Source: Ruminococcus flavefaciens
GTDB taxonomy: Bacteria; Bacteroidota; Bacteroidia; Bacteroidales; P3
Direction of reading: 5' to 3'
Length of the DNA stretch: 64,000 bases
NCBI GenBank assembly: GCA_023667315.1
Contig: JAMPAI010000005.1
Span: forward strand, 62,001 to 126,000
The notes beneath the pieces are model-generated. The model made no database searches. It worked only from the letters and a program-made list of their open reading frames with translations, and was not told where the DNA came from. Below are positions 20,280-38,027 of the stretch, piece by piece. The position numbers and the translations under genes were made by a program. The number at the start of each line of letters is the position of its first letter. Position 1 is the stretch's first letter.

Positions 20280-20484
20280 CGTCGCTTATATTGAATTCTA
20301 TGCCGGCCTCGCCCCAAAGCTTCCGCAACAGGGCCTCGTCCTTTCCGGCAAACACCAGTTTCATGCCGCAAGGGGTTTTCGGCGGCCCCAGCACGGTCTT
20401 AAGCTGGCAGGACACGCCTGCCTTGAGCGCGATTTCCTCGGCGCGTATCAGAATCGCGGCGCTCCCGAACAAGGCCTGCTTCAT
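20269..20484 (-). CDS. DUF3343 small protein (putative Se/S carrier)
   Basis: 71 residues of the DUF3343 family, annotated elsewhere as putative Se/S carrier-like proteins. The opening LFGSAAILIRAEEIALKAGV and the Pro-rich LGPPKTPCGMKLVFAGKD segment, with one conserved Cys in the TPCG motif, are typical. It overlaps selD by 11 bases and shares one base with the stop of yedF, so translation is tightly coupled. The position suggests that it hands sulfur or selenium between YedF and SelD or MnmH; this is inference. Confidence 0.85.
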   Translation of the reverse strand: MKQALFGSAAILIRAEEIALKAGVSCQLKTVLGPPKTPCGMKLVFAGKDEALLRKLWGEAGIEFNISDDGI

Positions 20485-21125
20485 CAGGGATAAATCACTT
20501 TAAAGGATTGCGAAAGCAATGTGGCGATATGGTACATATTGCTGATGCTGCCCACGGCCACCTTTTCCTGCAAGCCGTAAAATTCCACACAGGTGCCGCA
20601 CACCACCAGCGAAACGCCCTTTTCCTGCAAGACCTTGAGCGATTCCAGCACGGGCGAGTCCGCGCAGGTGAGCTTCACGCCTTCGTTGTAGAAGCAGATG
20701 GCCTGAGGCAGGCTGTCCAGTTCGGGCAAGACGTTCAGGAAGGCCTTTACCAGCAGGGAGCCCAAGCGTTCGTCGCCCTTACCCATGCACAGCGAGGACA
20801 CCGCCACCACATAGCTTCCCGAGGGCGTCTGAGCCGGAGCGGGCGTCGGGGCGGTGCGGCAGAAAGTCTCGGCCTGCGAGCGGTCGGCCGCCGATTTCTC
20901 GGCTTCGGAGCCCACCACGAACGAAAGGATCCATTCCTGGTTATCCACCTGCATTTCCTTAAAGGCGATGCCCAATTCGGACAGATAGTTCTTGAGGTTT
21001 CCCAAGGGAATGGCACCGTCGCCCACCACCTGTATGGGCGTTCCGGCCGCAGCCTGGCCGATGGCCTGCTTGGTCTTGATTAAGGGCGCGGGACACGAAA
21101 GCCCGCGTACATCTACGGTTGGCAT
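20484..21125 (-). CDS. yedF: Selenium-metabolism sulfurtransferase-like protein YedF
   Basis: 213 residues with two parts. The N-terminal ~75 residues are a TusA-like domain with the sulfur-carrier motif RGLSCPAPLI (Cys at 11). After a Pro/Ala linker the C-terminal ~115 residues form a DsrE-like domain (SSLCMGKGDERLGSLLVKAFL, CGTCVEFYGL). This fusion is the form of YedF found with selenium genes. Likely role: delivery of selenium or sulfur in the selenophosphate/selenouridine pathway. It lies 11 bases after mnmH and overlaps the next gene. Confidence 0.92.
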   Translation of the reverse strand: MPTVDVRGLSCPAPLIKTKQAIGQAAAGTPIQVVGDGAIPLGNLKNYLSELGIAFKEMQVDNQEWILSFVVGSEAEKSAADRSQAETFCRTAPTPAPAQTPSGSYVVAVSSLCMGKGDERLGSLLVKAFLNVLPELDSLPQAICFYNEGVKLTCADSPVLESLKVLQEKGVSLVVCGTCVEFYGLQEKVAVGSISNMYHIATLLSQSFKVIYP

Positions 21126-21136
21126 ATCTTTCTGTT

Positions 21137-22153
21137 TTATTTTTTCTGTATGAATGTATGGGAAAATTCAAGCAATTCCCGGCAAACCGCGTCCGCCGTG
21201 CCGGTGGCCATGCAGCGGTGAACCGTTTTCCCGGGACGTTTCTGCAAGGAAAAAAGATAGGTCTTGTCGTAATAGGCAAGCGCCATCTCCACGGCCTGTT
21301 CGATATGGCCGCCCTCCACGGCGGCAATAGCCTGCCGCACCCGGTCGCCGCCCATGCGCCGTTGCAGCCTCGACAGGCAATCAACCAACAGCGGGGCGGG
21401 CATCCGGCCGTATTCCTCCATGCCCCGGGCGATGCGTTCAGCCATGGGGCGTTCCACATAAACGAGCGGCGAAGAAGTCAGCAACGTGTAGAATGAATGG
21501 GGAAGCACCACCTTGCCGAGGTTCAGGCTCTCGTCCTCGCACCAAACGGGGCGTTCGGGCGAAAAGCGCTCCATAAGCGCATGCAGGGTGTTGGAGAATT
21601 CCTCGTTGCCGGGCTGGGGTTCCTGACCGAGCGCGCCGAACGCGGAACCCTTGTGGTGCGCCATGCCTTCCAGGTCGAGCACCTGTTCGCCCTGCTGTTC
21701 CAGGCAGTGCAGGATTTCGGTCTTTCCGCAGAGCGTGGGGCCGCCCAGCACGATAAACCGCCAGGGCTGCCGCATCATCGCTTCGAAAGCGTTGCGGTAA
21801 GCCCGGTAACCGCCGGGGTACACCTGCACGTCTATGTCCTGCAGGCGCAGCAGCCAGGCCACGCTCGCGCTCCGCATGCCGCCGCGCCAGCAATAAAGCA
21901 TGAGCCGGCCTTTTTTCGAAAGGGCCTTGCCCTGACGCAGCATATCCGCAAAACGAGAGCCGGTCAGCTCCAACCCGCGTTCTATGGCGGCGTATTTGCC
22001 CTGACGCGCATAGAGGGTTCCCACCTCCGCCCGTTCCTCATCGGTAAACAGAGGCAGGTTGTACGCCCCCTGCACGTGTCCACGGCGGTATTCGGAGGGC
22101 GTTCGCACGTCCACCCAGACAAAATCGTCCGTTCTTATCGAACCCGGTTCCAT
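21137..22153 (-). CDS. mnmH: tRNA 2-selenouridine synthase
   Basis: 338 residues (also called SelU). It replaces the sulfur of 2-thiouridine at the tRNA wobble position with selenium from selenophosphate, through a geranylated intermediate. The N-terminal rhodanese domain has its active-site Cys in LYCWRGGMRS (about residue 88); the C-terminal domain has a P-loop GGPTLCGKTE (about 137-146). The ATG at 22153 is chosen over a TTG three codons upstream. It is the first gene of the selenium operon, behind a -7 box at 22183-22190. With SelD it forms a complete selenouridine pathway without any selenoprotein-insertion gene nearby. Confidence 0.95.
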   Translation of the reverse strand: MEPGSIRTDDFVWVDVRTPSEYRRGHVQGAYNLPLFTDEERAEVGTLYARQGKYAAIERGLELTGSRFADMLRQGKALSKKGRLMLYCWRGGMRSASVAWLLRLQDIDVQVYPGGYRAYRNAFEAMMRQPWRFIVLGGPTLCGKTEILHCLEQQGEQVLDLEGMAHHKGSAFGALGQEPQPGNEEFSNTLHALMERFSPERPVWCEDESLNLGKVVLPHSFYTLLTSSPLVYVERPMAERIARGMEEYGRMPAPLLVDCLSRLQRRMGGDRVRQAIAAVEGGHIEQAVEMALAYYDKTYLFSLQKRPGKTVHRCMATGTADAVCRELLEFSHTFIQKK

Positions 22154-23866: not shown

Positions 23867-23897
23867 TTTGGTATGCAGATTTTAGTCTGTACCTTTG
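23867..23897 (+). promoter_or_regulatory. Complete Bacteroidota promoter for the ATPase-RloB pair
   Basis: TTTG at 23867-23870, a 19-base spacer, then TACCTTTG (TAnnTTTG) at 23890-23897. It lies 27 bases before the GTG start at 23925 and overlaps an earlier in-frame TTG, which rules that TTG out. Confidence 0.75.
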
Positions 23898-23924
23898 CAT
23901 CACAACCAAGAAAAACATACCGTT

Positions 23925-25247
23925 GTGATAGCAGAATTCAACGTCGAGAATTTCTTGTCCATCAAGTCGGCTCAAAAAATAAGTTTTGAACCCACGCCGG
24001 ACACCACTTTGTCGGAGCAATACACCCACGAAGTGAAGCCCGGGGTGCGCTTACTCAAAATCGGCATCATTTACGGGGCGAACGCGTCGGGCAAGACCAA
24101 TATCCTTACGGCCTTTGAGTTTTTCAAGATGCTTGTCTTGGTTATGCCCCAAGACCGTAATGCAAATACCGTATTCATGCCTTTTTTGCTGGATGACACC
24201 TCGAAAAACGGCACCACTAAGACGGTGATGTCCTTCTATATCGGTCCATCCAAATACATCCTCAGTTTTGAGTTGGATGCAAAGCATATCCTTTCCGAGA
24301 CCTTGATTGTGTATGATTCCAACCGCCCCACAAAACTGTACAGCCGCAGTTACCACGAAGCCACCGACTCCACAAGTATAGAATTCGGCACAAACCTAAA
24401 GTTGTCGAAGAAGAGCCAGGATATCATTTCGGGCAACACCTTGAATAATGGCAGCGTGCTGGCAGCCTTCGGCAAAAGCAATGTAGAAAAGACCAAGCTG
24501 AACGATGTTTACGACTACTTTGACCGGCAGGTAGGGGATGTGTTGACGCCCGGAATGCTGTTATCGGGGTATATAAAGAGGCGTTTATACAGCGATGGCG
24601 GCGGTGAGTTGAAGCGATTTATCCTAAATTTCCTAAAAGCCTCCGACTTCAATATAGAAGATGTAGTCTTGCAGGAAAAGGAAGAGTTGATTACTACCGA
24701 ATTGGAGCAAGCCATTCGGCAGGTTCCCGTTAACGAAAATACCAGGAAAGAGTTACTCAAGAAAGGGACTATCACAAGTACCGAATTGATCTTCACCCAT
24801 CATGCCGGAGAACATCACTATACCTTAGGAGAGGGAAACGAGTCCAACGGCACCATGCGGTTTTTGGGCATCGCCACAATTCTGTACTTCCTGCTGAAGA
24901 AAAACCAGTTCGTGGCTATCGACGAGGTGGAATCGAGCATTCATTACGAACTGCTGGCCTACTTCATCAAGGTGTTCCTGGCCAACAGCGAGCAAACCTC
25001 GCAGATGTTGCTGACCACGCACGACATCAACCTGCTCAACGAAGACTTCATCCGCCGCGACACCATCTGGTTCGCCGACAAAAACGAACTCGGCGAAACC
25101 AAAATCATTCGCCTTTCGTCCCTTGGCCTGCACAAAAACCTTTCGCCCTACCATGCCTACCGACAGAACAAATTGGTGAAACTACCGTTCCTCGGCAGCA
25201 TTTACTTTGACCTAAACGATGAAAACGATGAGGCGGGCGGTAAATAA
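23925..25247 (+). CDS. AAA15/OLD-like ATPase of an RloA/RloB-type pair
   Basis: 440 residues from GTG 23925, chosen because the promoter lies just upstream and because MIAEFNVENFLSIKSAQ is the usual opening of AAA15 ATPases. Walker A is GANASGKTN (51-59). An ABC-like signature (EGNESNGTMRF), Walker B (FVAIDEVESSIHYELL) and a switch His (LLTTHDINLLNED) follow in the C-terminal half. These ATPases are SMC/RecF-like sensors found in abortive-infection systems beside a TOPRIM-type or RloB effector. The stop overlaps the rloB start by 29 bases. The pair resembles the ATPase-plus-effector layout of PARIS (AriA/AriB), though the partner family differs. Function is inferred. Confidence 0.8.
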   Translation: MIAEFNVENFLSIKSAQKISFEPTPDTTLSEQYTHEVKPGVRLLKIGIIYGANASGKTNILTAFEFFKMLVLVMPQDRNANTVFMPFLLDDTSKNGTTKTVMSFYIGPSKYILSFELDAKHILSETLIVYDSNRPTKLYSRSYHEATDSTSIEFGTNLKLSKKSQDIISGNTLNNGSVLAAFGKSNVEKTKLNDVYDYFDRQVGDVLTPGMLLSGYIKRRLYSDGGGELKRFILNFLKASDFNIEDVVLQEKEELITTELEQAIRQVPVNENTRKELLKKGTITSTELIFTHHAGEHHYTLGEGNESNGTMRFLGIATILYFLLKKNQFVAIDEVESSIHYELLAYFIKVFLANSEQTSQMLLTTHDINLLNEDFIRRDTIWFADKNELGETKIIRLSSLGLHKNLSPYHAYRQNKLVKLPFLGSIYFDLNDENDEAGGK

Positions 25248-25836
25248 AAGCATCGCGATTATCGGCGAAGGGGAAACCGAGTGGTTCTACTTTGAGTCCC
25301 TGCGGATAGCCTGCCGCTACCCGTTCAAGGTGGCACCCGACTTCCCGCAACACAGCGACATCGGGCATATGTTGAAGTTGCTGGAGGCATATCTATACAA
25401 ACAGTTCGACCTTGTCGTCTGCTTGTTCGATATGGACCGGCTTTTTCAACATCCCGCCGAAATGCAAGTATATCGGCAGGCGAAGAAAAAGTACAGTACC
25501 GCTAAATATGCGGGAAAGGTGATGTTCGTAGAGACGAATCCCTGCACGGAGTTCTGGTTCTTGCTGCACTTCCTGCCTCGCGCGGTTTGTCGCAAATACG
25601 AGAATTACGAGCAACTGCTTCCCGAATTGCAGAAGTACATGCCGGGCTATGAAAAGACCCAGCGATACTTTAAACGAACCAACCTCTACAAATACCTGAC
25701 TGAAAACGGAGACTTGGAACGCGCTATCGCCAACTCCGAAAAACTATGCCAAATGTGCCAAGCATCACCGGAGGACAAGATGGCATACACGGAGGTGCAT
25801 CGGGTGATAGAGGTGTTAAGATACGCATCGTCTTAG
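25219..25836 (+). CDS. RloB family protein
   Basis: 205 residues. RloB-family blocks are present: IIGEGETEWFYFESL (residues 14-28), CLFDMDRL with acidic D70 and D72, and the highly characteristic NPCTEFWFLLHF (107-118). The order Glu ... D-x-D is like that of TOPRIM-fold nucleases, so a metal-dependent nuclease is plausible but not shown. RloB genes occur in restriction-linked loci next to AAA ATPases, as here, with the start inside the end of the ATPase gene. Base composition is close to the core genome, unlike the next gene. Confidence 0.85.
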   Translation: MKTMRRAVNKSIAIIGEGETEWFYFESLRIACRYPFKVAPDFPQHSDIGHMLKLLEAYLYKQFDLVVCLFDMDRLFQHPAEMQVYRQAKKKYSTAKYAGKVMFVETNPCTEFWFLLHFLPRAVCRKYENYEQLLPELQKYMPGYEKTQRYFKRTNLYKYLTENGDLERAIANSEKLCQMCQASPEDKMAYTEVHRVIEVLRYASS

Positions 25837-25898: not shown

Positions 25899-27902
25899 AT
25901 GGACAAAATTTTAAACACACTTTATCTCAAAGTCAAATCAGAGACCAAAACACTGACCAATAGCGCCATAGCTCAAATATTAGTAAAAATCATATACTCA
26001 AATGAAAACCGTCTACCATTTGAGACCATAGTTTCTTTATACAAAAAATTTACAGGGAGGAAATCTGTCAATGAAAATATCATCAGAGACGTATTATCAA
26101 CCCTCTGCGCCACAAACGAAATCAAATTAAGTACAAAAAATGAATACTATATAACAGATTTGAAAAGGAAACAAATTGATTCAACTTGTGAGTCTTCAAA
26201 AAAACGACGTAAAAACATCATTGATACGTTTTTTTCACAAGTGCATTCAGAACGCGAAGCCATTGAGATTTGGCTTCAAGATGTGTCTATGCATTTTTTT
26301 CAATTCTTTTCCAATGAGTGGATTTCAGATTTGATGGAAACAAAAAGTTCCATTATTAATAACAAGGACAGTATTCGCGATGTTATTGTAAAAAGAACTA
26401 AAGATATCAAGAAGATAGATAAAAGGGATCAAGACATTCTCCCAAAATTATTCTTCGAATTTTTATGTTCTAAAGATGCAGATGTGGTTGCATATTTGTG
26501 GGAATATGGCACTTCTGCTTTCTCCGCAAAGCTAATAAGCAATACTGTAGGTGTTGATACTTTAACACTTGATGTATTCAAAGGATCCAAGTGCCTTTTT
26601 GATACGAACATCCTCATATTCGCAAAATTAGATGCAAGCAAATATCATAAAGCTCTAATTTCCCTTGAAAAATCTTTCAATAACTTAGGCATCGAAATAG
26701 GCATATTACATATAACAAAAGAGGAATATCTGCATAAAATTGATGTTCAAAGGAACATAACCCTGAACAATATTGAAAAAATGGGTTATGACCTCACAGC
26801 AACGGCCGAAGATGATTTTACCCAAAGCGCAATAGCATTGCATTGTAGAAAAAAAGAAGATTTTGAGACATTCTTTGATGACCTCAATGTATTGCCTCCA
26901 TATTTGCATAAATCTCTTCCGATTCGCATAGTGGATAACAAACAAATTGCAGACGCTATCGACTATGCACAAAAAGATGAAAAAAAGAAGAAAAAGTTAA
27001 ATTCTATTTTTTCCTCCGCAACAGGAAGAGAAAAAAGGCCTGCCCCTCTCAGACATGATGTAGGGCTGATTGCAGGTGCTGAATCACTACGTTCTAATGA
27101 AAAATGGTTCATTTTATCAGAAGAAATATCTGTAAACGAATACTCAAAACAAAAACCCGTTGAGAATGGACTACCATTATCCATACGAGTAGGTACCCTA
27201 ATAAATGTACTAGCATTAGATAGTGGCGGGGATTGTTTCGATGCAAATGATTATATGCCATTATTTGCCTCCATCATACAAAATGGATTTCAACCATCAA
27301 AAGCAACCTTTGCACAAGAGGATCTTTATGCTATTTACGATTTGAATCATCAAATAGCTTTACTCCCTGATGAACAAAAAAGGGATATTGTAATGAACAT
27401 ACACGCCAAACGGTTAAAAGGAGAAAATGAAGAAACTTTAAAAATCGAATTAGAGCGAGCTATCACAAGAGGCAAACTGCAAATCTCCAACGACTTGAAC
27501 GAAACACAAAAAGCGCTAACCGCAACAGAAGAAGAGGTAAAAAGACAAAAAAGTAGAGGTGATATTGCAACACAGGCATTACTATCACAAATACAAAAAG
27601 ATGTCAAACGTTCTTATCGAAAAAAATTATGGACGTGGATTCTAATACCCGTGGGGATTCCTTTGGTTGTTTGGGGTATACTTTTTTTCTTGCCTATAAC
27701 ATTAAACCTTAACGTATCAAGCCAGTTAGTAAATCCTATTATGAATATAATCACAGGAATAGTGCCGGATCTCATCTACCTGCTTTTGGGCGGAGCAAGA
27801 AAAATCCGCTCTATTTTCAAAAATAAGAATAGGTTCTTCGAAGAAGAAATCGAAAAACGAATGGAAAAAGCTCTAGATGAACAAACCAAATATAAAAAGT
27901 AG
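25899..27902 (+). CDS. PIN-like domain protein with two C-terminal transmembrane segments
   Basis: 667 residues; no close named family recognised. Residues 1-~95 look like a small helical, possibly winged-helix, domain. A PIN-like nuclease core is suggested by CLFDTNILIFAKLD (Asp235, Asn237), an acidic pair in ITKEEYLHK (275-276) and LRHDVGLIAGAESL (Asp387) followed by KWFILSEE, the usual last strand. Residues ~500-570 are predicted coiled coil. Two hydrophobic segments (about 579-602 and 611-631) would anchor it in the inner membrane, with a basic/acidic tail behind. The gene is far richer in A+T than its neighbours, a sign of recent transfer. It has its own promoter box and terminator. An RNase effector held at the membrane in a defence setting is an inference. 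Confidence 0.6.
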   Translation: MDKILNTLYLKVKSETKTLTNSAIAQILVKIIYSNENRLPFETIVSLYKKFTGRKSVNENIIRDVLSTLCATNEIKLSTKNEYYITDLKRKQIDSTCESSKKRRKNIIDTFFSQVHSEREAIEIWLQDVSMHFFQFFSNEWISDLMETKSSIINNKDSIRDVIVKRTKDIKKIDKRDQDILPKLFFEFLCSKDADVVAYLWEYGTSAFSAKLISNTVGVDTLTLDVFKGSKCLFDTNILIFAKLDASKYHKALISLEKSFNNLGIEIGILHITKEEYLHKIDVQRNITLNNIEKMGYDLTATAEDDFTQSAIALHCRKKEDFETFFDDLNVLPPYLHKSLPIRIVDNKQIADAIDYAQKDEKKKKKLNSIFSSATGREKRPAPLRHDVGLIAGAESLRSNEKWFILSEEISVNEYSKQKPVENGLPLSIRVGTLINVLALDSGGDCFDANDYMPLFASIIQNGFQPSKATFAQEDLYAIYDLNHQIALLPDEQKRDIVMNIHAKRLKGENEETLKIELERAITRGKLQISNDLNETQKALTATEEEVKRQKSRGDIATQALLSQIQKDVKRSYRKKLWTWILIPVGIPLVVWGILFFLPITLNLNVSSQLVNPIMNIITGIVPDLIYLLLGGARKIRSIFKNKNRFFEEEIEKRMEKALDEQTKYKK

Positions 27903-27966: not shown

Positions 27967-30900
27967 CTACCCCACCCCCGTCATCTCGTCCACCAGATCT
28001 TGGTAGGAGGCCACTTTGTGGTAGCGCACCTTGTCGGTGGATATGGTTTTGAACAGTTTTTCCGCGCAGGCGATTTTGGCCTTTTCTATGGCGCTCAATT
28101 CCATGGAAGACATAGAGCCTTTGGTTTCGGCGATGAAGAAGATATGCTTGATGCCGTCGCGCTGCATGGCTATCGCCCAGTCCGGAGCGTAGTTGCCCAC
28201 CGGCGTGGGAATGTGGAATGTACGCGGCAGTTTGGCATATACCACCACTTCGCTGGCCTCGTCAAGGGCGTGGGCGAAATTTTTCTCGCCGAGACTGTCG
28301 GTGATGACGTAATCGGTGATATGCTTCTTCGCCTCACAGACCCGCGATATTTCCGTGTGGCTGTTGACGGTGAAGATATCCGAATCGTACTTGCCTTCAG
28401 TAAGGTGATAGTGGATATGCTCTACCACCATCGTGGCCTTCTGCTCGCGGATAATCTGAACGACCTTACGGATAAATTCCTCGGGATTGTTCTTGAACAG
28501 CGCCAGTTTTATGGGGCGCAGACCTTGTAGAATCCTGACCGCCGTCCTGCGGGTGATGTTGGCCCCCTTTGCAACCTGCCCGATAAGGTCGTACCGCACC
28601 GAAGAAGTGCTCACGTCCGTAAGTTCGTGCGACGACGATTTCGTATTCCCGAAAGAAGCAACATCCTCTTCCGTCTGCGTTCCCGTTATCTTGACATAAC
28701 GCAGGGTACGCACCTGCAATCCATCGGTATTGAGATGCAGAACGGCGTTCTTTATCAATTCTTCGGAATCGTAGCTTACCGTATAGACATATTGGTGGTT
28801 GATGGCTTTCCACAGTTCCTGAAATTCCGGCTTGCTGAAATTCTTGTTGGGATGTTGTTCGGGTATCTTGGAGGAAGATTCATCCTTGATCATCTCTTTC
28901 AAGACGGACGGATCGAAAATCGACTGTATCAGTTTCGTCACCCCTTCGGCCATCGGTGCAAGGTTTTCTCCATAAGGAACAAGAGTTTCGGCGGCCACGT
29001 CGGCATGATACTTAGGCGTGATGTTGCCGTTGTCATCCACATATCCGTTATCATCCAGGTAATTCATGATCCAGCGGGCCTCGCGGTCGGAAACGACATG
29101 CGGCTGCGCGTTTACAAGAATGGTCTGCCCGGCAAAATAAGAGGTCGTGGCTTTCGAGACCCGTTCACGGAGTACCTCACGGGTTTCCTTCTGCAAGGCA
29201 TTGGTGAAGTCCGCATAACTTTCGTTGGCGATAACGGTAAGCACGTTGATGTTGTGCACGTCGGCGCCCAACAGTTCCTTGTCTTGACGCACCCCGTCTT
29301 TATCCACACAGATACGCAGGCCGCGCCCCACCTCCTGCCGCTTGGCGGTGGTGGAATTGCTATGGCGTAAAGTGCATATCTGGAATACATTGGGATTGTC
29401 CCAACCCTCGCGGAGCGCGGAATGCGAAAAAATGAAACGGGTCGGCTCGTCGAAACTTAATAAACGTTCCTTGTTGCGGAGAATCAGGTCGTAGGCCGAG
29501 ATGTCGTCCGAAATATCCGAACCCCGTTTCACCGCGCTGTCCACCGAACGGCCTTTCTTATCGATGGAGAAATAGCCCTTATGCACCTCTTGCGCCGTGG
29601 AACGGTGCACATACTCCCAATAGTCCTTATCCCACAGCGAACCTTGCGAAAAGGCCCTGTTGTATTCCTCCTCAAAGATCTGCTGGAACACGCCCTTCAC
29701 CTCGTTGCCGTCCGCATCATAAGAACGGTATTTGGCTACCTCGTCGATGAAGAAGAGCGAAAGGCACTTGATGCCCTTTTTAAAAAGCATGCATTCCTTT
29801 TCGAGATGCGAGGCGATGGTTTCGCGTATCTGCACACGCTGCATATGCAGTTCGTTAGCATCGCCCAGCACCTCCCCCTTGTGAAGGCACACCCCGTTCA
29901 TAAAGGTGACGTAGGCCGCGGGTTGCTCCAAAGTGCCGGGAAAGATTTCCGAGACCACATAACCCTCATATTGGGCAAGGCCGTTACTTTCAGCAAGCAA
30001 CGAATCGCCCACACCAAACGACTTGATATGGCGGCGCGGCTCGCCGGCGGCGTTCTTCACCTCGATTTCCATACGCGCCACGGGCGGCTTGTTCGGCGAA
30101 AGCACAATGTTGTCGAGATACATATACCCGTTGGTGCCGCGTAAGTTCCTCACTTCAAATCCCTTCACGGCGATACGCTTTACCAGCCGTTCCCGGTAGG
30201 CGTCCAGCGCATCGAGCGCATACACCATGTCGTGTTTGATCTTGAGGGTAGCCGAATAGTTGAGGGTGAACAAGGGGCTGAACCGCTTGAGCGCCGTCTG
30301 GGTCACCGCACCCTCCATTTTCTGCGGCTCGTCCATGATGATAACCGGATGATTGGCCGCGATGACGTCTATGGGACGGCGCGAGGCAAATTCATCGCGT
30401 TTATCGTAAATAATGCGGCTTTCCTTGCTCTTGCCGCCCTCCTTCATTGAGGCGGCGAACGCCTGGGTGTTGATGATCATGACGTTCAAGCCGGCGTCCT
30501 GCGAGAATTGGTCGAGTTGATTGAGATTGGCCGAATTATAGATGAACCAACGTGCCTTCTTGCCGTAATGCTCCATAAAGTGGTCTTCGAGCATGCGGAA
30601 CGACTTGGCCACCCCTTCGCGGATGGCGATGCTCGGCACCACCACCATAAACTTCGACCAGCCGTAAAGACGGTTCAGCTCGAACATCGTCTTTATATAG
30701 ACGTAGGTCTTGCCCGTTCCGGTCTCCATCTCGATATCGAGGCTTACCGCGCCGAGGCCTTGGGTGTCGGCCAGTGAGGACGACAGCGGCACACCCGCAC
30801 GAGTCTGCACGGCATGCAGGTTCTCGAGCAACTGCTTGCGGTCAACGGCAACCTCCATATTGCGGTAGCCGTCATCGTTTTCGTCTATCCGTCGCTGGTG

Positions 30901-31020
30901 GATCTTGCCTAAGTCGCGGCGATACTTGGTGCCGTCATTGAAGGGCTGCCCCACAAAAATGTCGGTAGTGTTCTTGACCGCCTCCGTCTGATAGGCCTGA
31001 ATCTTGAACTTAAATTTCAT
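27967..31020 (-). CDS. Type III-like restriction endonuclease subunit (Res)
   Basis: 1017 residues; SF2 translocase plus nuclease. Walker A is METGTGKTYVYIK (GTGKT at 101-105), motif II is IIMDEPQKMEG (about residue 230) and motif VI lies in AKRQEVGRGLRI. The C-terminal nuclease has YAPDWAIAM (Asp947) and FIAETKGS (Glu965, Lys967), a PD-(D/E)XK centre. All catalytic residues are present, so it is predicted active. It cuts unmethylated DNA as a complex with the Mod subunit encoded three bases upstream. It is the last gene of the leftward six-gene operon and converges on the PIN gene. Confidence 0.9.
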   Translation of the reverse strand: MKFKFKIQAYQTEAVKNTTDIFVGQPFNDGTKYRRDLGKIHQRRIDENDDGYRNMEVAVDRKQLLENLHAVQTRAGVPLSSSLADTQGLGAVSLDIEMETGTGKTYVYIKTMFELNRLYGWSKFMVVVPSIAIREGVAKSFRMLEDHFMEHYGKKARWFIYNSANLNQLDQFSQDAGLNVMIINTQAFAASMKEGGKSKESRIIYDKRDEFASRRPIDVIAANHPVIIMDEPQKMEGAVTQTALKRFSPLFTLNYSATLKIKHDMVYALDALDAYRERLVKRIAVKGFEVRNLRGTNGYMYLDNIVLSPNKPPVARMEIEVKNAAGEPRRHIKSFGVGDSLLAESNGLAQYEGYVVSEIFPGTLEQPAAYVTFMNGVCLHKGEVLGDANELHMQRVQIRETIASHLEKECMLFKKGIKCLSLFFIDEVAKYRSYDADGNEVKGVFQQIFEEEYNRAFSQGSLWDKDYWEYVHRSTAQEVHKGYFSIDKKGRSVDSAVKRGSDISDDISAYDLILRNKERLLSFDEPTRFIFSHSALREGWDNPNVFQICTLRHSNSTTAKRQEVGRGLRICVDKDGVRQDKELLGADVHNINVLTVIANESYADFTNALQKETREVLRERVSKATTSYFAGQTILVNAQPHVVSDREARWIMNYLDDNGYVDDNGNITPKYHADVAAETLVPYGENLAPMAEGVTKLIQSIFDPSVLKEMIKDESSSKIPEQHPNKNFSKPEFQELWKAINHQYVYTVSYDSEELIKNAVLHLNTDGLQVRTLRYVKITGTQTEEDVASFGNTKSSSHELTDVSTSSVRYDLIGQVAKGANITRRTAVRILQGLRPIKLALFKNNPEEFIRKVVQIIREQKATMVVEHIHYHLTEGKYDSDIFTVNSHTEISRVCEAKKHITDYVITDSLGEKNFAHALDEASEVVVYAKLPRTFHIPTPVGNYAPDWAIAMQRDGIKHIFFIAETKGSMSSMELSAIEKAKIACAEKLFKTISTDKVRYHKVASYQDLVDEMTGVG

Positions 31021-31023
31021 GGC

Positions 31024-33018
31024 CTACAGAATTTTGCGGGTGGTTTCGGGCGAATAGTGGCGGAAGATCTGCTCGAAATTGTCGAGCACGTTGTCGTTGG
31101 CGGCCGAGGCATCGCGCATCACGAAGTATTGCGGCTTCAGCTTGGCGATTTCCGTTACGGTCGATTCGTTCACCTCCTTGTCGAAGGTCGCGATAAGGTA
31201 ATTGCCATCCACAAAGAACACCTTTTTGCCGTTCACTTCCTTTTCTTCCACCTTGGCCGACAGTTCGATATTGAGTTCGGGCATCACCTGAAAAAGCAGG
31301 TCGAGCGGCGTGCGGTCGGATTTCACGTTATCTACAAACAGTTTGAGTTGGTCGGAAGTAAAGTCTTCCGGCTTATAGAAAACATCCTCCATATTCGAGG
31401 AATCGAGTTTGAGCACGCGGAAGCCGATGTCCAATTTGTCGATACCCTCCTTGCCAGCATTTTCTTCCTTGATTTTCTTTCCCGCCCGGCGGATGCGTTC
31501 CTTACCGATTTCGCAGATGGTATTATAACCCGCCTTACGCGCCTCGCTATCTTTCCCTGTCTCTTCGGGCAACTGTACCATAATGAACTTGCGGTGCCCG
31601 CCGTCCTCCGCGTTGAGTTTCATGACCGCATGGGCGGTGGTGGCGGAGCCGGAGAAGAAGTCAAGGATGAAATCGTCATTGTCAGAAAAAGCGTCTATAA
31701 GATTAGATACGACAATTTCATCTTTAGGAAAGTCGAACACTTCTTGCTTCATTAAATCCCTAAGTCTTAATTTTGCCCCACGCCTGTCTTTGTAGAATAC
31801 AGTATCTAACAGCTGAGTTTCATTGTCATGCAAATAGCGTTTTAGAACAGGGAGTTTATCGTTATCGTAAAAAACTAAACGACCCTCTTCTACTGCTTTC
31901 CATAAATCTGCCTCCTTGCCAAAAACCCATCCGCGAGAAGGGGGATTTATCGTTTTTCCGTTGATGGGATTTATTACTTGATATTTACCCCCTCCGACAC
32001 GGGAGACGTTGTCCATACAGTAACAACCTCGTTCATCTATATGGCAATAATGAGCATGGGCCTTAGATTCCTCGGGAGCATCGTTAGAGAACCATTTTTT
32101 TAATTTTTCTGTCGCTAATTCGCAGTCATTAGCACATTCAGCTAAGAGAGATTCTCTTTTAGCATAAATTGCTTCAAGCCCACGCTTTTTTTCTTTCCAT
32201 TCCAAATTGCTGTTACGGCATAACTCCAAAGATTTAGCAAATACAAGAATATATTCGTGAGAAGTAGAGATAAATCGTGCAGTATTTGTTTTACCGCCTT
32301 GCCATACCATTTGGGCGATAAAATTACTTTCACCGAAAATCTCGTTCATCATACGACGAAGATTTTCTATTTCATTATCATCTATGGATACAAGAATAAC
32401 ACCCAACTCCGACAATAAATCCCTCGCCACTTTTAAGCGTGGATAAATCATGTTGAGCCAGTCGGTATGGAAGCGACCGTTGGCCTCGGTATTGCGTTGC
32501 ATGGGGTCAGTCGTTTGATTCCCCTCTTCGTCCCGAAACCCGCTGGTTGCCTCAAACTCACCTTTACCTTTCCCATAGTCATCGTTATAAACAAAATCAT
32601 TCCCCGTATTGTACGGCGGGTCTATGTAAATCATCTTGATCTTGCCGAGATAATCTTCGCGGAGCAGTTTAAGCACTTCGAGGTTGTCGCCCTCTATGTA
32701 GAGGTTCTCAGAATCGAAGCCTCCGGGTGTGCCATCCTTGCCCGCACTTTCTTTCTGACACGGACGCAAGGCCATATCGGAAGGCGTATTGGCAAGACGC
32801 GATGCCGCCCGCTTGTCGGGCCACGTAAACTGATAGCGTTCCTCACCCTCTTCCAGCACCTCATTCGACAACTCCGCCCGAAGTTTATCGAAGTCTATGG
32901 CCAGTTCCGGCTTCCCGCTCTTATTCAGTCGCTCCGTAACGCACTGCGGAAACAGCGCGGCTATTTTCGCCACATTGCTGTCCACTGCGTTAGTACTTTT
33001 CATGTTCAGTTTGTTCAT
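31024..33018 (-). CDS. Type III-like DNA adenine/cytosine-N4 methyltransferase (Mod)
   Basis: 664 residues. The amino-methyltransferase motif YIDPPYNTGND (DPPY at 133-136) comes before the SAM motif ILDFFSGSATT (about 449-459), the beta-class order of type III Mod proteins. The stretch between them (about residues 200-440) is the target-recognition domain and sets the methylated site. This middle part (bases ~31690-32450) is visibly richer in A+T than both flanks, which suggests an exchanged recognition domain. The start overlaps the end of the HEPN-like gene by 29 bases. An internal Met at codon 6 is an alternative start. It protects host DNA and guides Res. Confidence 0.9.
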   Translation of the reverse strand: MNKLNMKSTNAVDSNVAKIAALFPQCVTERLNKSGKPELAIDFDKLRAELSNEVLEEGEERYQFTWPDKRAASRLANTPSDMALRPCQKESAGKDGTPGGFDSENLYIEGDNLEVLKLLREDYLGKIKMIYIDPPYNTGNDFVYNDDYGKGKGEFEATSGFRDEEGNQTTDPMQRNTEANGRFHTDWLNMIYPRLKVARDLLSELGVILVSIDDNEIENLRRMMNEIFGESNFIAQMVWQGGKTNTARFISTSHEYILVFAKSLELCRNSNLEWKEKKRGLEAIYAKRESLLAECANDCELATEKLKKWFSNDAPEESKAHAHYCHIDERGCYCMDNVSRVGGGKYQVINPINGKTINPPSRGWVFGKEADLWKAVEEGRLVFYDNDKLPVLKRYLHDNETQLLDTVFYKDRRGAKLRLRDLMKQEVFDFPKDEIVVSNLIDAFSDNDDFILDFFSGSATTAHAVMKLNAEDGGHRKFIMVQLPEETGKDSEARKAGYNTICEIGKERIRRAGKKIKEENAGKEGIDKLDIGFRVLKLDSSNMEDVFYKPEDFTSDQLKLFVDNVKSDRTPLDLLFQVMPELNIELSAKVEEKEVNGKKVFFVDGNYLIATFDKEVNESTVTEIAKLKPQYFVMRDASAANDNVLDNFEQIFRHYSPETTRKIL

Positions 33019-33637
33019 TATCGTTTATCTCTTTTACCAGTTGCTTTGCAAAATAGTCCATTACCATGTCGTCATATCGCAAAACAGCCTCTATTTCAAT
33101 GTGTTCACAATTTTCATCATATTGTTCCAAAAATCCGCCCGTCAGTTCTTCTACTTCTTTAACCCAAAACTCACTAACCTTCTTCCTGATTCGCAAAAGT
33201 TCCTTTAACAATCGAATATCATCTTCTGTGATTCCTTTGCTTAATTCTTTATAAAATTCATGCACAAACTGATTCCTCCGCCTGGAAATATTTGTAAGCG
33301 TCATAAAGTCAGTATCATCTATTGCATTAAGATGATTTTTCATGAATTTACAAATTGACAAAGTCTGGATGACCCTCCCTTTTTCATTTTTATAACACTT
33401 GAGGAGTTCTCTGTTGCACTTCTCTTTACTTTCTTTATCTTCTGTCCGTTCATCCGTAATAGGATCATGTAGTACAAATTGTGGCGTAATTTCACCCGTA
33501 TCCACATTCACAAGGTCAAAATTGGAATACAATGTTATGAACTGTATCTTCCAATAGGAAACAAACTGCTCGAATGCCATAACAAATAAGCAGACAAAAG
33601 AAAAATCATCCTTTAACTTATCTAATTCAATATCCAT
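32990..33637 (-). CDS. Protein with HEPN-type R-N-x3-H motif, in the R-M operon
   Basis: 215 residues, mostly alpha-helical and AT-rich. No named family is certain. The segment ISRRRNQFVHEFYKEL contains R121-N-Q-F-V-H126, the exact RX4H pattern, with Asn after Arg, of HEPN RNases and HEPN-related proteins. Charged helices surround it, as in HEPN folds. It overlaps DUF4391 by 16 bases upstream and mod by 29 bases downstream, so it is translated together with the restriction genes. HEPN proteins beside R-M genes can act as toxin-like back-ups, but many HEPN proteins are only structural. Toxic RNase activity is inference. Confidence 0.55.
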   Translation of the reverse strand: MDIELDKLKDDFSFVCLFVMAFEQFVSYWKIQFITLYSNFDLVNVDTGEITPQFVLHDPITDERTEDKESKEKCNRELLKCYKNEKGRVIQTLSICKFMKNHLNAIDDTDFMTLTNISRRRNQFVHEFYKELSKGITEDDIRLLKELLRIRKKVSEFWVKEVEELTGGFLEQYDENCEHIEIEAVLRYDDMVMDYFAKQLVKEINDNEQTEHEKY

Positions 33638-34281
33638 CTCGAATCTTTCAGTTTTTGAAGTTCAACAAACAATTCCCTTTTCCGCCGCGGCTGTTTGGTC
33701 GTTGCCATCTGTTTTTCCAGCACGACGATTTGATGCCGAAGTTTCTCCACGCGTTCTTCTTCGGCTTTCTGCTCCGTATAGTCATCTATTGAGGTTATCG
33801 GCTTTTGCGAAATCTGCGCAAGGAGGTTGGAATAGACGGCATCCATATTTATCCCCTGAATGGTCAAGGTCAAATCGGCAAGATTGACTTGCTTGCGCAG
33901 TTCCGAGGCTATGATTTTCCAACCGACAGCATTTGAGTGCTCCACGCGTTGTTTATGTTGCATCAACACGTCCGTATATTCGCCATATTGAATAACGTAC
34001 AGGCAATGTCGGGGAATCAGTTTGTCGAGTGCGCAAAATGGTTTAATAGAGTAACTATCGGTTTTGCAACGAAAATAGAACACATCTATTTCGTTCACTT
34101 CCTCGCCCGGGGCTACATTCAGCGTGTCGGCACGAAGCACATACAACAACCGTATCTGCTCAAATTCGCCCGCCAGCAAGTCTCGCACCGCCGTGGGGGT
34201 AGCGCTCGCCTTGACAAACTTCGCCTTGGGGATTAGTTTGTCCACGAAACAGCCTTGCGGAAATTTGAGCAGGTTTTCCAT
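33622..34281 (-). CDS. DUF4391 family protein
   Basis: 219 residues of the DUF4391 type: FPQGCFVDKLIPKAKF near the start, an LYVLRADTLNV strand, then a helical C-terminus with a coiled coil (AEEERVEKLRHQIVVLEKQMATTKQ). DUF4391 proteins occur almost only inside helicase and methyltransferase defence operons like this one; their activity is not known. The start directly abuts the stop of the 86-residue gene, and the end overlaps the HEPN-like gene by 16 bases. It may be an adaptor between the helicase and the Mod/Res complex; this is a guess from position. Confidence 0.8.
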   Translation of the reverse strand: MENLLKFPQGCFVDKLIPKAKFVKASATPTAVRDLLAGEFEQIRLLYVLRADTLNVAPGEEVNEIDVFYFRCKTDSYSIKPFCALDKLIPRHCLYVIQYGEYTDVLMQHKQRVEHSNAVGWKIIASELRKQVNLADLTLTIQGINMDAVYSNLLAQISQKPITSIDDYTEQKAEEERVEKLRHQIVVLEKQMATTKQPRRKRELFVELQKLKDSRWILN

Positions 34282-34542
34282 TTACTCTATGACAGGGACA
34301 AAAACGACTTCGTCTACTTCAAGTTTAACAGGATAAATGGCAAAGTCATTTATCGCATGGACTTCTTTACTTCCATTATCAGGTTCCCACGCATACACAT
34401 TTGTACAACCATCAATACATGCCACCAATGCATTATAGAGCGGTAGCGTATCATCATATTTCCGATATGCATTTTGCACAAATGGCACACCATTGTACAA
34501 AAATTTGAAAGGGAATCCCGTTTTAATATTAATTACTTCCAT
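34282..34542 (-). CDS. 86-residue protein of unknown function in the defence operon
   Basis: Not recognised. It is small, beta-rich looking and acidic: FPFKFLYNGVPFVQNAYRKY, a central LYNALVACIDGCTNVYAWEPDN and a hydrophobic end (EVDEVVFVPVIE). No signal peptide, membrane segment or catalytic motif was found. Its position is fixed tightly between the helicase gene (two bases upstream) and DUF4391 (immediately downstream), so it is almost surely expressed. It is AT-rich compared with the core genes. Confidence 0.65.
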   Translation of the reverse strand: MEVINIKTGFPFKFLYNGVPFVQNAYRKYDDTLPLYNALVACIDGCTNVYAWEPDNGSKEVHAINDFAIYPVKLEVDEVVFVPVIE

Positions 34543-34544
34543 AG

Positions 34545-37500
34545 CTATTTCACTATTAAAAACGTTATCAACTCAAAATCATCAAGGCCGGCGATTTCGT
34601 TCCGCAAAAACGAAGTTTCGCCTTCGGAGAAAAGCGAATCCATATCGCTTTCTTCCTTGACGGTGACGATGCTCTCTATGGCGCAGCGCAACAGGTCGGT
34701 ATAGGCCGACATATCGCGTCCATCTTTGGTCTCGCGATTCACCTGCCTGCACAGTTCAATGAGCGGTTCCGTCTTCCCCTTGCAGGCAAGGCGCATCGTG
34801 TCGAGCATCTTCTTGGGGTCAAGATGGTCTATCAACACCTCCCCGTCCTTGGAAAGGTAAACCATATAAAACGGATGAAGCCGGTTGGTGTTGCCGATAT
34901 TCACTTCATTGCGACGGTTGCGCAACACGAAAATCACCCCGGCGGGTAATCCAACAGAAGCCGCGACAACGGCATTCATGCCATTGGGCGTGTGCTCAAT
35001 ATCCGGGTTCTCCTTGATATAGTCCAGCAAGTCGAGACGGAATTCGTTCAACCCCAAGTCCATAATCGAGACGCCGGTGTTCATTTCCTCTATATCGACA
35101 ACCTCCTTCTGGAGGCGTTCCAGCTGGTCGCGGCGATATTTCAGGTCGCCCTGTTCCTCGGCGGAAAGAGGGTTGTCGTCGCCGGTGGCGGTGAGCACCG
35201 ACACTTTCATCCGCGCCTCCACACGGCCTTTCAGGTCGATATACTCGTCCAAATCCATATCGGGCCAATAGTTCACCAACTGTATCACCTCGTTGCGCGA
35301 TCCGATACGGTCGATGCGCCCGAAGCGTTGGATAATGCGCACGGGGTTCCAGTGAATATCGTAGTTGATAAGGAAATCGCAGTCTTGCAGGTTCTGCCCT
35401 TCGGAAATGCAGTCGGTGGCAATCAGCACGTCGATTTCCTCCTTCAGGCCGGGATAGATGGCCTCCTTTTCTTTCGACAGGGGCGAGAAAAGCGTAAGCA
35501 CCTTATTGAAATCGAGTTTCTCGCGGAGCTTGAGCGTGGAGCGGGCCTCCACATCGCCCGACACAAGGGCGGTGTTCATGCCCGTGCGTTCCTTGACAAG
35601 GGGCGCGATATTTTCGTAGAGATACTGCGCCGTATCGGAAAAGGCGGTAAAGATGATGATTTTCCTGTTTTCGCCATTGATGGGATGGGCGAACTTGTCG
35701 CGGATGTCCTGCAGGAGCATTTGCAGTTTGCTGTCATGCCCGGGCGTGATGTCGGCAAGCATCGCCAGCAGGTTCCGCAAAATGTCGAGGTCTTTGGCAA
35801 GGAAACCGCGCCACTGGATATAATCCATGTCGGCAAGGTCGATTCTGGTCTTCTTGTTGCCGATAAAGACACTGTCCTCCCGATCATCGAAATCGAGCCC
35901 GTAGGAAAAATCGTAATCACACACCACAGAGGCCGAAACCTTGGCCGCCTCGGCATCGATGGCCTCAAGGGTAGCCTCTATGTATTTCGTTATCCGCTCC
36001 AGCGTTAACCGGAATGAGTTCACCGAACTTTCGAGACGTTTGAGCAGGTTGATGCCCATCAATTGCCGGATGCCGCGTTCACGACCCGCCCGCGAGAGGT
36101 TGCGGAAGCGTCCGTCTTCCCGCGCCTCCGTATATTTTTCCAGCTTGCTGGGCAGGATAAAGTCGGAAGGCGTGTAGATGGCTAAGTTCAGGTCGCTTAC
36201 ACTGGAAAAAATATCGTTGAAACTAATGGTTGTGGTGGGCAGGTCGGTCAACTTGGGCGTACGGGAAATTGGTTTCAACCGCCTGGGAAACTTGCCGATA
36301 TCGGCCGTGTCGTAATATTGCTCTATATGCTTGCGGCTGCGGGCGATGGTTACACTGTCGAGCACTTCAAAGAAATCGAAACTGAGGGAATCCAGGAGCG
36401 TCTTGGTGGTCCGTTCCTCGGGTGGCAGTTTCGACCAACGGTTAAAGGCGGACTGTGCATCGCGAAAAATCTTATCCACCGACGAAGTTGTGTTCAACAG
36501 CGCGTCCATACGCCCGGAATCGCCCTCGTAGGCAAGCGCGAGTTGATTGCGCAAGTCGTTGAAACGATTGTTGACGGGCGTGGCCGACAGCATCAGCACC
36601 TTGCTCTTCACACCCGACCGAATCACCCTGTTCATCAGTTGCAGATAGCGGTTCTCCCGCGGATTGTCGTCGTTTTCGTCGGTCGTCACCTTGCCGCCGT
36701 TGCGGAAATTATGGCTCTCGTCAATCACTATCAAATCGTAATTGCCCCAATTGATATGCGACAGATCCTGTCCGTTGGTCTTGCCCTCCTTGCGCGACAG
36801 GTCGCTGTGAAAGAACACATCGTAGCGCAAACGGTCTTTGGATATGGGATTGTTCAGATAGTTGCTCTTATAGGTAATCCAGTTGTCGTTCAACTTTTTC
36901 GGGCAGAGCACCAATACAGACTTGTTCCGGTTTTCGTAATACTTAATCACCGAAAGCGCCGTGAAGGTCTTGCCCAAGCCCACACTGTCCGCAAGAATAC
37001 AGCCGTTATACTTCTCCAGCTTGTTGATGATGGCCAGACAGGCATCTTTCTGAAAGTTGTACAGCTTGTTCCATATCTGGCTTTCCTTGAATCCAGTGGC
37101 CTCGTTGGGCAAGACGTCTTCGGAGAGATCATCCAGAAACTCACGGAAGATGTTATAGAGCGTCAGGAAGTAAATGAACTCCGGGGCGTTTTCCTTGTAG
37201 GCGTTGGTGATGTTGTTTAAAACCTCGTCGGTAACCACCTGCAATTTGGAATTGTCGTTCCAGATCTGGTCGAAAAGCGTCAGGTATTGCCGGGAGAACG
37301 GAGCCTCGAACTTGTTTATCACCGTATAGGCGTTGTCTCCACGTTCACAGCCCAACTCCACGGTTGTGAATCCGTTTATGGGCATATACGCCTTGTCGTC
37401 CACCGTGGCGAAACCCACCATATTCTCGTGGGTGCGGTTCGACTTAAAGCAGGCCTTCCGCTTTATCCATTCCGCGCATTCTTTCGCGATGGCTTTTTGC

Positions 37501-37787
37501 GAAAGTTCATTGCGCAACTTTATCTCGAATTCGGAACCGTATAGATTCCGCTCGCGATGAAGACGGGGAATGTAGAATTCCCGCTGTTGCCTGTCCACCT
37601 TTTCGGTAACAAAGGTGGGAGAAGTAAAGATGAAACGGAGTTCCTCTATATCCTTGAGGTGAGATTTCAGTTCCTCGAAAGCGTAGATAGAAAAGCACGA
37701 CGCGGCAATAGACACCTTGCTTCCGTGCCGCAAAGCCCGCAGCAAGTCGTCTTTAAAAATTGTATGTACGTTGTCTATCAGCTCCAT
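34545..37787 (-). CDS. SNF2/HepA-type helicase with N-terminal PLD-like region
   Basis: 1080 residues from ATG 37787; an in-frame start 23 codons upstream gives an unlikely extension. Residues 1-~150 resemble the phospholipase D-like domain found before defence helicases (IFKDDLLRALRHGSKVSIAASCFSIYAFEEL), but I do not see a clear HxK catalytic pair. SF2/SNF2 motifs: LADSVGLGKTFTAL (about 265), IVIDESHNFRNG (about 352), MLSATPVNNRFNDL (about 402), ATDCISEGQNLQDCD and QRFGRIDRIGS (about 820). It is the first gene of the leftward operon and should translocate on DNA. Similar helicases occur in several phage-defence operons. A -7-like TACATTCG at 37875-37882 might be the promoter. Confidence 0.85.
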   Translation of the reverse strand: MELIDNVHTIFKDDLLRALRHGSKVSIAASCFSIYAFEELKSHLKDIEELRFIFTSPTFVTEKVDRQQREFYIPRLHRERNLYGSEFEIKLRNELSQKAIAKECAEWIKRKACFKSNRTHENMVGFATVDDKAYMPINGFTTVELGCERGDNAYTVINKFEAPFSRQYLTLFDQIWNDNSKLQVVTDEVLNNITNAYKENAPEFIYFLTLYNIFREFLDDLSEDVLPNEATGFKESQIWNKLYNFQKDACLAIINKLEKYNGCILADSVGLGKTFTALSVIKYYENRNKSVLVLCPKKLNDNWITYKSNYLNNPISKDRLRYDVFFHSDLSRKEGKTNGQDLSHINWGNYDLIVIDESHNFRNGGKVTTDENDDNPRENRYLQLMNRVIRSGVKSKVLMLSATPVNNRFNDLRNQLALAYEGDSGRMDALLNTTSSVDKIFRDAQSAFNRWSKLPPEERTTKTLLDSLSFDFFEVLDSVTIARSRKHIEQYYDTADIGKFPRRLKPISRTPKLTDLPTTTISFNDIFSSVSDLNLAIYTPSDFILPSKLEKYTEAREDGRFRNLSRAGRERGIRQLMGINLLKRLESSVNSFRLTLERITKYIEATLEAIDAEAAKVSASVVCDYDFSYGLDFDDREDSVFIGNKKTRIDLADMDYIQWRGFLAKDLDILRNLLAMLADITPGHDSKLQMLLQDIRDKFAHPINGENRKIIIFTAFSDTAQYLYENIAPLVKERTGMNTALVSGDVEARSTLKLREKLDFNKVLTLFSPLSKEKEAIYPGLKEEIDVLIATDCISEGQNLQDCDFLINYDIHWNPVRIIQRFGRIDRIGSRNEVIQLVNYWPDMDLDEYIDLKGRVEARMKVSVLTATGDDNPLSAEEQGDLKYRRDQLERLQKEVVDIEEMNTGVSIMDLGLNEFRLDLLDYIKENPDIEHTPNGMNAVVAASVGLPAGVIFVLRNRRNEVNIGNTNRLHPFYMVYLSKDGEVLIDHLDPKKMLDTMRLACKGKTEPLIELCRQVNRETKDGRDMSAYTDLLRCAIESIVTVKEESDMDSLFSEGETSFLRNEIAGLDDFELITFLIVK

Positions 37788-38027
37788 AAGGAAGAAATGG
37801 GGTTCCGCGCCGAGACATCGTTCTTCCATAACAAGAAAAACAACGTCTCTACGCAAGAGACCATCAATCTATCGCGAATGTACGAAAATAAAAGAAATTT
37901 TGATATTGTCAATACGCTCAACAAGAATTGTAATCAATACTTGAAACCTATCAACAAAAAAAATATTTACCAGATCAACAAACTGAACCACACAAAAGCA
38001 GACAACTATTGGCGGTAGCAAATGAAA

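Follow-up and report, generated by a model that had tools for sequence, protein, structure and literature searches.

The operon at positions 27967..37787 of the stretch analysed here (hereafter the window, 64,000 nt of contig JAMPAI010000005.1 in the Ruminococcus flavefaciens assembly GCA_023667315.1) appears, on sequence comparison, to be a real, widespread and modular extension of type III restriction-modification (R-M) that carries an effector bay. Its four core genes encode an SNF2-type helicase, a DUF4391 protein and the type III subunits Mod and Res, and two further genes, for a HEPN-like protein and an 86-aa protein, sit in gaps between them. Comparison with other loci shows the four-gene core, its kept order, the shared divergence of its proteins, the exchangeable slots between its genes and the kinship of Mod and Res to EcoP15I. 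The best explanation, with a probability of roughly one half, is that a type III Mod-Res pair is combined with an SNF2 motor that is docked through DUF4391 and widens restriction, with the HEPN-like protein acting as a guard effector and the 86-aa gene being recent cargo.

Loci for the comparison were gathered around two anchors, and core genes were called with profiles built from the window proteins. With DUF4391 as anchor, 22/393 genomes of the order matched, 17 of them over the family cut-off and the window's own genome included, and 16 stretches were opened, leaving out the window's own place, genome G040 and the sub-threshold places. A helicase was present in 14/16 of these (of the two without one, one is a contig of just 4.6 kb), and three partial places outside the 16 (L017, L018 and L020) also adjoined one. 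With the helicase as anchor, in the form of a 14-sequence alignment, 80 genome loci (the best 80 of at least 581 relatives) and 74 loci on viral contigs were added. The core loci span many phyla, their titles naming Bacteroidales, Clostridia, Bacilli, Veillonella, Proteobacteria, Akkermansiaceae, Planctomycetia, Spirochaetaceae, Fibrobacter, Oligosphaera, Gastranaerophilales and others. Helicase, DUF4391, mod and res followed one another in this order on a single strand in 119/169 helicase-bearing loci, and in 104/116 of those having at least 7.5 kb past the helicase; the other 12 comprised four rotated loci (L195 being seen only from Res on), three with no Res match, one with helicase and Res, and four with the helicase only. 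The earlier note on this DNA, made from the window sequence alone, had placed helicase and DUF4391 with mod and res in a six-gene system. That association is borne out, and the two genes are non-random neighbours of mod and res within a widespread four-gene core; the membership of the HEPN-like and 86-aa genes in a fixed system is not, both being absent from 170/170 other loci.

The core proteins also co-diverge, with correlations between pairwise distances of r=0.68-0.84 across 94 complete loci compared with a maximum of 0.18 in 500 permutations. Among plasmids, 104/72,556 records matched the helicase, and six of six stretches opened matched all four core profiles. The bare core order is found on the Escherichia coli plasmid pLAO18, on Leuconostoc kimchii plasmid LkipL4701 (L279, 8527-17293) and on a Listeria plasmid, the mod match of Acinetobacter pMsp65 is split by an IS1, and the cores of the Raoultella and Aeromonas plasmids carry cargo. 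These observations bear on the simplest alternative, a plain type III R-M system in which only mod and res matter, with the four other operon genes riding along as part of a defence island. Passengers would not be expected to keep order and co-divergence with mod and res over many phyla as helicase and DUF4391 do, nor to travel as a bare four-gene cassette on plasmids, and this alternative is quite unlikely, even though the clade also contains, nested within it, bare mod-res operons, and of 171 loci the window's is the only one to hold the HEPN-like and 86-aa genes.

The bare operons came from a sample anchored on Res, in which 47/354 genomes matched at E<=1e-50, the window's own included, and surroundings were known for 25/47, the other 22 being mostly partial matches. 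Eleven stretches were newly chosen among the strong Res matches, and ten of them were read (all but L262, which overlaps L029); proportions among the 11 are uninformative because they were picked mainly for lacking a DUF4391 hit. Mod and res stood without a helicase in L254, L255 and L258, and appear to do so in L257 on a short contig, whereas a more distant SNF2 protein lay ahead of mod-res in L259, L260 and L261; L232 and L256 were cut by contig ends, and L263 was rotated with a short helicase frame. The exact sisters of L254, L255 and L258 differ between the Mod and Res trees. Mod-res can therefore stand alone, with the motor module as a long-lived yet removable addition. The distant SNF2 helicase is about 960 aa long and scored 146-152 bits in L260 and L261, being partial in L259, and in L260 and L259 a 780-aa protein, an ABC-type ATPase by our own reading of its N-terminus, lies between it and mod-res. 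In four relatives' stretches checked for an empty island site, MazG was matched, without its neighbours.

Type III enzymes hemimethylate a short asymmetric site, which Mod recognises, and Res slides along DNA using ATP and cuts 25-27 bp away. The Mod of the window matches EcoP15I Mod (4zcf_A, E=6e-72) and PADLOC MTase_III (688.2 bits), and the motif [DNS]PP[YWF] is present in 122/122 full-length Mod members; a methylase motif I pattern of the F.G[SG]G type, found in 13/122, was taken as too strict. Res matches EcoP15I Res (4zcf_C, E=3e-64) over an alignment that includes the C-terminal endonuclease stretch, along with PADLOC REase_III (943.9 bits) and, in Pfam, RE_endonuc (PF19778, E=2.7e-31) and ResIII, and its relatives carry TG[TS]GKT (93/110), DE[PA][QH] (110/110) and a loose PD...ExK pattern (110/110). 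By homology, Mod and Res are evidently type III subunits related to EcoP15I, and both open reading frames (ORFs) are open. The likeness to EcoP15I (Mod2Res1) extends to mod lying ahead of res; the difference is that here an SNF2 helicase and DUF4391 precede mod as a conserved cassette with cargo slots.

The helicase matches the PADLOC model C3a139, 'HKD+Snf2', at 398.6 bits over nearly its whole length (a name that, to judge from its prefix only, presumably goes back to a catalogue of genes near type III CRISPR) and phrog_26785 at 801 bits, nearly full length. Four helicase motifs were each found in 157-160 of 160 sequences. The label of a phospholipase D (PLD)/SNF2 helicase holds for its SNF2 part, with Pfam SNF2-rel_dom and Helicase_C both matched, and is not supported by the residues of the PLD nuclease part: no column of the first 240 residues held histidine in at least 40% of 152 sequences, and the pattern H.K.{4,6}D occurred in the N-terminus of only 9/160. 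With the HKD residues not conserved, DNA cutting by the N-terminal domain is not expected.

Among known families the best NCBIfam match of the helicase is DrmD of DISARM, at 147.6 bits against a cut-off of 610, and DpdE of Dpd is matched at 86.4 against 500; it also matches the PADLOC models BrxHI and BrxHII at 83.3 and 62.6 bits, and DrmA at 70.7 bits only, among the 25 of 52 PADLOC matches listed. The helicases of DISARM and Dpd both stand beside DNA-modifying enzymes, and a related SNF2 helicase is what the present operon shares with them. It differs in that the helicase falls below the curated cut-offs and that neither a DUF1998 (DrmB) nor a TGT-type (DpdA) domain was found among the nine window proteins scanned with Pfam, the six operon products included; DISARM membership was therefore rejected, as was Dpd membership, the DpdI model also matching just 1/103 DUF4391 members (E=0.0017), on which a kinship of DUF4391 with DpdI was dropped. 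Membership in BREX or BREX-related systems was likewise rejected, with no PglZ or BrxC/DUF499 domain among the same nine proteins.

An alternative is an arrangement of two machines sharing one methylase, in which helicase and DUF4391 would form a DISARM- or Dpd-like restriction arm that reads the Mod mark beside the classical Res arm. The sub-threshold DrmD match points in this direction, as do four loci (L175, L184, L187 and L196) in which the helicase stands near an Eco57I-type methylase with no Res match in the stretch, so that it may work with a methylase alone. Such an arm would lack conserved nuclease residues in its HKD-labelled domain, and where DUF4391 and Mod follow the helicase with room to spare Res is nearly always present (104 vs 3 loci); we regard this account as unlikely, if by no means fanciful.

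DUF4391 scores 106.8 bits against PF14335 (cut-off 29.9) and follows the helicase in the 119 core-order loci and also in most truncated loci. It is the fastest-changing core protein, with a median identity of 0.26 (helicase 0.56, Mod 0.44, Res 0.49). A confident AlphaFold2 model, with a mean predicted local distance difference test (pLDDT) score of 93.5, consists of an alpha/beta domain of strands and helices and of two long C-terminal helices, the latter part being likely a coiled-coil, and a search of the model against PDB and BFVD returned no match at E<=0.001. In the four loci with the helicase alone, the Eco57I-type methylase is the next or next-but-one gene, and a DUF4391-like region lies ahead of the methylase domain in three of them and in L018, where the contig stops within the methylase part (E values 1.5e-5 to 1e-3). 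A profile of five such regions aligned to the DUF4391 profile by hhalign at E=2e-4. DUF4391-like regions within Eco57I-type methylases beside the helicase are a hint that DUF4391 links the motor to methylases, which suggests a role as an adaptor between the two. A DUF4391-Mod fusion in L038 was rejected as an over-extended reading frame. In L116 (13279-15438, +), DUF4391 is N-terminal in a 720-aa protein whose remaining ~500 residues have no Pfam match at E<=0.01.

To score the gaps between core genes, a slot was counted as filled where the gap was at least 240 bases, with near-copies removed and 155 loci left. The helicase/DUF4391 slot was filled in 17/141, the DUF4391/mod slot in 58/121 and the mod/res slot in 46/109, and among complete loci 69/109 had at least one filled slot and 40/109 none. 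The helicase/DUF4391 junction was the least often split, at Fisher p of about 1e-10 and 7e-8, values that are optimistic because the loci are related; this rarity of insertions also speaks for the adaptor idea. Cargo was listed, scanned with Pfam and compared on earlier maps, which lacked any core gene whose overlap with a neighbour exceeded 60 bases. The 134 same-strand cargo proteins of at least 80 aa, the window's two included, fell into 94 clusters, of which 78 had a single member. Among the 25 of 71 Pfam families listed for E<=0.001, the most frequent were Schlafen AlbA_2 (9), RhuM (7), Abi_C (6), Fic (5) and Bro-N (4), with 23S_rRNA_IVP (3), Abi_2 (2), PDDEXK_3 (2), GmrSD_N (2) and others also among those listed; when 17 slot proteins from other loci were scanned singly, two exceeded a family cut-off (HNH and DUF4365). 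Cargo in the DUF4391/mod slot is closely joined on both sides, the DUF4391-to-cargo join having a median of -4 bases (46/52 within 60) and the cargo-to-mod join one of 11 bases (41/52 within 60). Between loci with a helicase identity of at least 0.85, 49 of 67 pairs differed in cargo (an empty and a filled locus being counted as different), six shared a cluster and 12 were both empty. On these comparisons, the gaps between core genes are slots that hold changing genes.

Several loci held further genes in or near these positions. On the Aeromonas plasmid pE31A (L275), an AAA ATPase and DUF4276 pair occupies the mod/res slot (19700-21494), and a 900-aa ATP-binding protein lies in the DUF4391/mod slot both there and in Raoultella L274, which has a WYL regulator ahead of the helicase. 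In L195 a Piwi-domain protein (4442-6493, +; E=2.1e-16) directly follows helicase and DUF4391, and a piece of Res lies upstream, where the contig begins.

The layout of the operon in the window is given in the table below. All six ORFs are open at the positions first given for them, and the earlier description of six leftward genes with gaps of 0-3 bases or overlaps agrees with the coordinates: gaps of 3 (res/mod), 0 (DUF4391/86-aa) and 2 bases (86-aa/helicase), and overlaps of 29 (mod/HEPN-like) and 16 bases (HEPN-like/DUF4391). The helicase start that aligns with relatives is the ATG at 37787, the ORF list starting the frame at a TTG at 37856. The first slot is filled (263 bases), as is the second (603 bases), and the third is empty. 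Facing the res end of the operon is an AbiL-like pair (23895-25836, +), composed of an AAA ATPase (PADLOC AbiLi, 219.9 bits) and a RloB-family protein (AbiLii, 76.3 bits); between the pair and res lies a 667-aa protein (25899-27902, +) without a PADLOC or NCBIfam family and with Pfam and PHROG matches at chance level.

Table. Genes of the operon, in window coordinates and in order of transcription.
Product	Position	Strand	Remarks
SNF2-type helicase/translocase, 1080 aa	34545..37787	-	Core gene 1; Pfam SNF2-rel_dom and Helicase_C
86-aa orphan ORF	34282..34542	-	Cargo of slot 1 (helicase/DUF4391); without family match
DUF4391 protein, 219 aa	33622..34281	-	Core gene 2; PF14335, 106.8 bits
HEPN-like protein, 215 aa, RNQFVH motif	32990..33637	-	Cargo of slot 2 (DUF4391/mod)
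Mod, type III N6-adenine methyltransferase subunit, 664 aa	31024..33018	-	Core gene 3; MTase_III
Res, type III restriction subunit, 1017 aa	27967..31020	-	Core gene 4; REase_III; SF2 helicase and C-terminal endonuclease domain

The two genes in the filled slots of the window belong to the exchangeable cargo and are no fixed parts. Their GC content at third codon positions (GC3) is low (HEPN-like 0.35, 86-aa 0.30) compared with Res and helicase (0.70) and with Mod and DUF4391 (0.54 to 0.56), which fits recent arrival. The 86-aa protein had no match in Pfam, PADLOC, NCBIfam or PHROG, and no relative in the 170 other loci, plasmids, viral contigs, the 294 other genomes of the order sample or L200/L201. 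Relatives of the HEPN-like protein numbered zero in the 170 other loci, whether sought with a profile of the window protein or with a four-sequence alignment (E<=10), and none were found in plasmids or viral contigs. Matches occurred in 4/393 genomes of the order sample (the window's own, G081, G185 and G177) and 2/395 of the phylum sample (its own and G619); that in G177, partial and weak in a large, unrelated-looking 767-aa frame, was excluded from the alignment.

The description of a HEPN-motif protein stands as to the motif, RNxxxH being invariant in the window protein and three aligned relatives, two of them 95% identical (L200/L201); as to the fold, profile evidence is weak, with a RiboL-PSP-HEPN match in Pfam that scores 13.4 bits (E=0.075) where the cut-off is 28.4, no match of the HEPN Pfam model to the three relatives, and an hhalign match to RiboL-PSP-HEPN in the motif region only (E=0.0075, probability 5%). 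In L200 and L201 the HEPN-like gene lies immediately ahead of, and overlaps, mod in mod-res operons without helicase or DUF4391, and in L200 an AAA/RloB-like pair just upstream, as read from the sequence, resembles the AbiL-like pair of the window. In the Mod tree the window Mod is not placed next to those of L200 and L201. The earlier note had reasoned that the HEPN-like and 86-aa genes would be passengers if almost all related operons lacked them: both are indeed lacking from all of the other loci, yet the HEPN-like gene is not simply a passenger, because in two operons without a helicase its relatives immediately precede mod, and it may travel with mod. It is likely, by its motif and position, to encode an RNase effector carried as cargo.

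The same gene could instead encode the toxin of an addiction module that stabilises the operon, its antitoxin being Mod or the 86-aa protein, and not a phage-triggered effector. Its place ahead of and overlapping mod in two unlike operon types, and the recent arrival suggested by its low GC3, would both accord with addiction. The nine Pfam-scanned window proteins include no nucleotidyltransferase-type antitoxin, L200 and L201 hold no 86-aa relative, and other slots hold Abi, Fic and Schlafen proteins, although some of these can also be components of toxin-antitoxin systems; on balance, an addiction role is unlikely.

In the preferred explanation, that of a type III enzyme widened by a docked motor and backed by a guard effector, Mod would recognise and methylate its site, and Res together with Mod would slide along unmodified DNA and cut it as EcoP15I does. 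DUF4391 would dock the SNF2 motor onto the methylase complex, and the motor, without a working HKD nuclease, would move or remodel DNA or strip bound proteins, giving Mod-Res access to DNA beyond the reach of an ordinary type III enzyme. The HEPN-like protein would be a guard effector that an intact Mod complex keeps silent; once restriction is disabled by a phage, it would be freed to cut RNA, like PrrC with EcoprrI, and the 86-aa product, as recent cargo, would perhaps be a partner or silencer of an effector.

A number of observations weigh against parts of this explanation. The loci underlying the core counts are mutually related and not independent, and many are cut by contig ends. The helicase-free mod-res operons L254, L255 and L258 branch from within the loci that carry the helicase (sister supports 0.998 to 1.0), from which the motor module would be dispensable for some. 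The DUF4391-like regions of the Eco57I-type methylases all score below the Pfam cut-off, L187 has none, and the hhalign probability of their match to DUF4391 is 47%. The structural model of the HEPN-like protein has a mean pLDDT of 61 and no PDB match at E<=0.001, a strict HEPN-type motif is not enriched in slot-2 cargo of 150-330 aa (2/29, the window's own included, vs 1.5 expected), and neither Mod nor Res accompanies the relative in L199, a stretch of 3.2 kb. The overlap with mod in L200 and L201, measured from the mod start that aligns, is 29 bases as in the window, with the HEPN-like stop in the same Thr-Asn codons of mod, but is suggestive only, since unrelated cargo in L062 also overlaps mod by 29 bases.

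A layered action, with restriction first and an effector later, had been raised in the earlier note and is plausible, fitting both the cargo families and published proposals. In the main text of Anantharaman 2013 (PMC3710099), a HEPN gene in an R-M operon is proposed as a second line, and RhuM and Fic/Doc-type genes are placed near R-M. PrrC-EcoprrI and the HEPN/R-M operons treated there resemble the present operon in that a HEPN gene lies among R-M genes (PMC3710099), and differ in that the HEPN-like gene here is one of many interchangeable cargos. The term 'type III' is used two times in that main text, each time of CRISPR, so a helicase-DUF4391-type III core is not put forward there in such terms. 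For BREX and BREX-related cores, auxiliary HEPN, Schlafen or OLD nucleases are proposed as backup effectors in PMC12839542; BREX-related systems with an HKD+Swi2/Snf2 helicase share with this operon the combination of helicase and N6-methylase and the proposed backup effectors, but as described there they centre on a DUF499/BrxC-type ATPase, a domain for which the six operon proteins gave no Pfam match. PADLOC splits the core into REase_III, MTase_III and HKD+Snf2 labels, with no DUF4391 model matched, and no description of the four-gene core was found in the open-access literature searched, in which one paper names DUF4391, REBASE lying outside that search.

A bolder extension, which we offer tentatively and rate at somewhat less than even odds, is that DUF4391 is an adaptor of new fold coupling one SNF2 motor family to unlike methylases, separate in the case of type III Mod and fused in the Eco57I type. 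The result would be a motor-adaptor-methylase chassis across many phyla and plasmids, whose gaps serve as an effector bay swapping RNases, Fic, Schlafen and other guard toxins that back up phage-disabled restriction.

Taken in this way, a locus that would be read as type III R-M plus odd genes becomes a defined, widespread four-gene defence cassette. Its exchangeable slots amount to a natural experiment in the choice of effectors that accompany restriction, and the old proposal of second-line toxins within R-M operons could be tested on them directly. The layering of bacterial antiviral defences would thereby become testable, and DUF4391 would gain a testable function.

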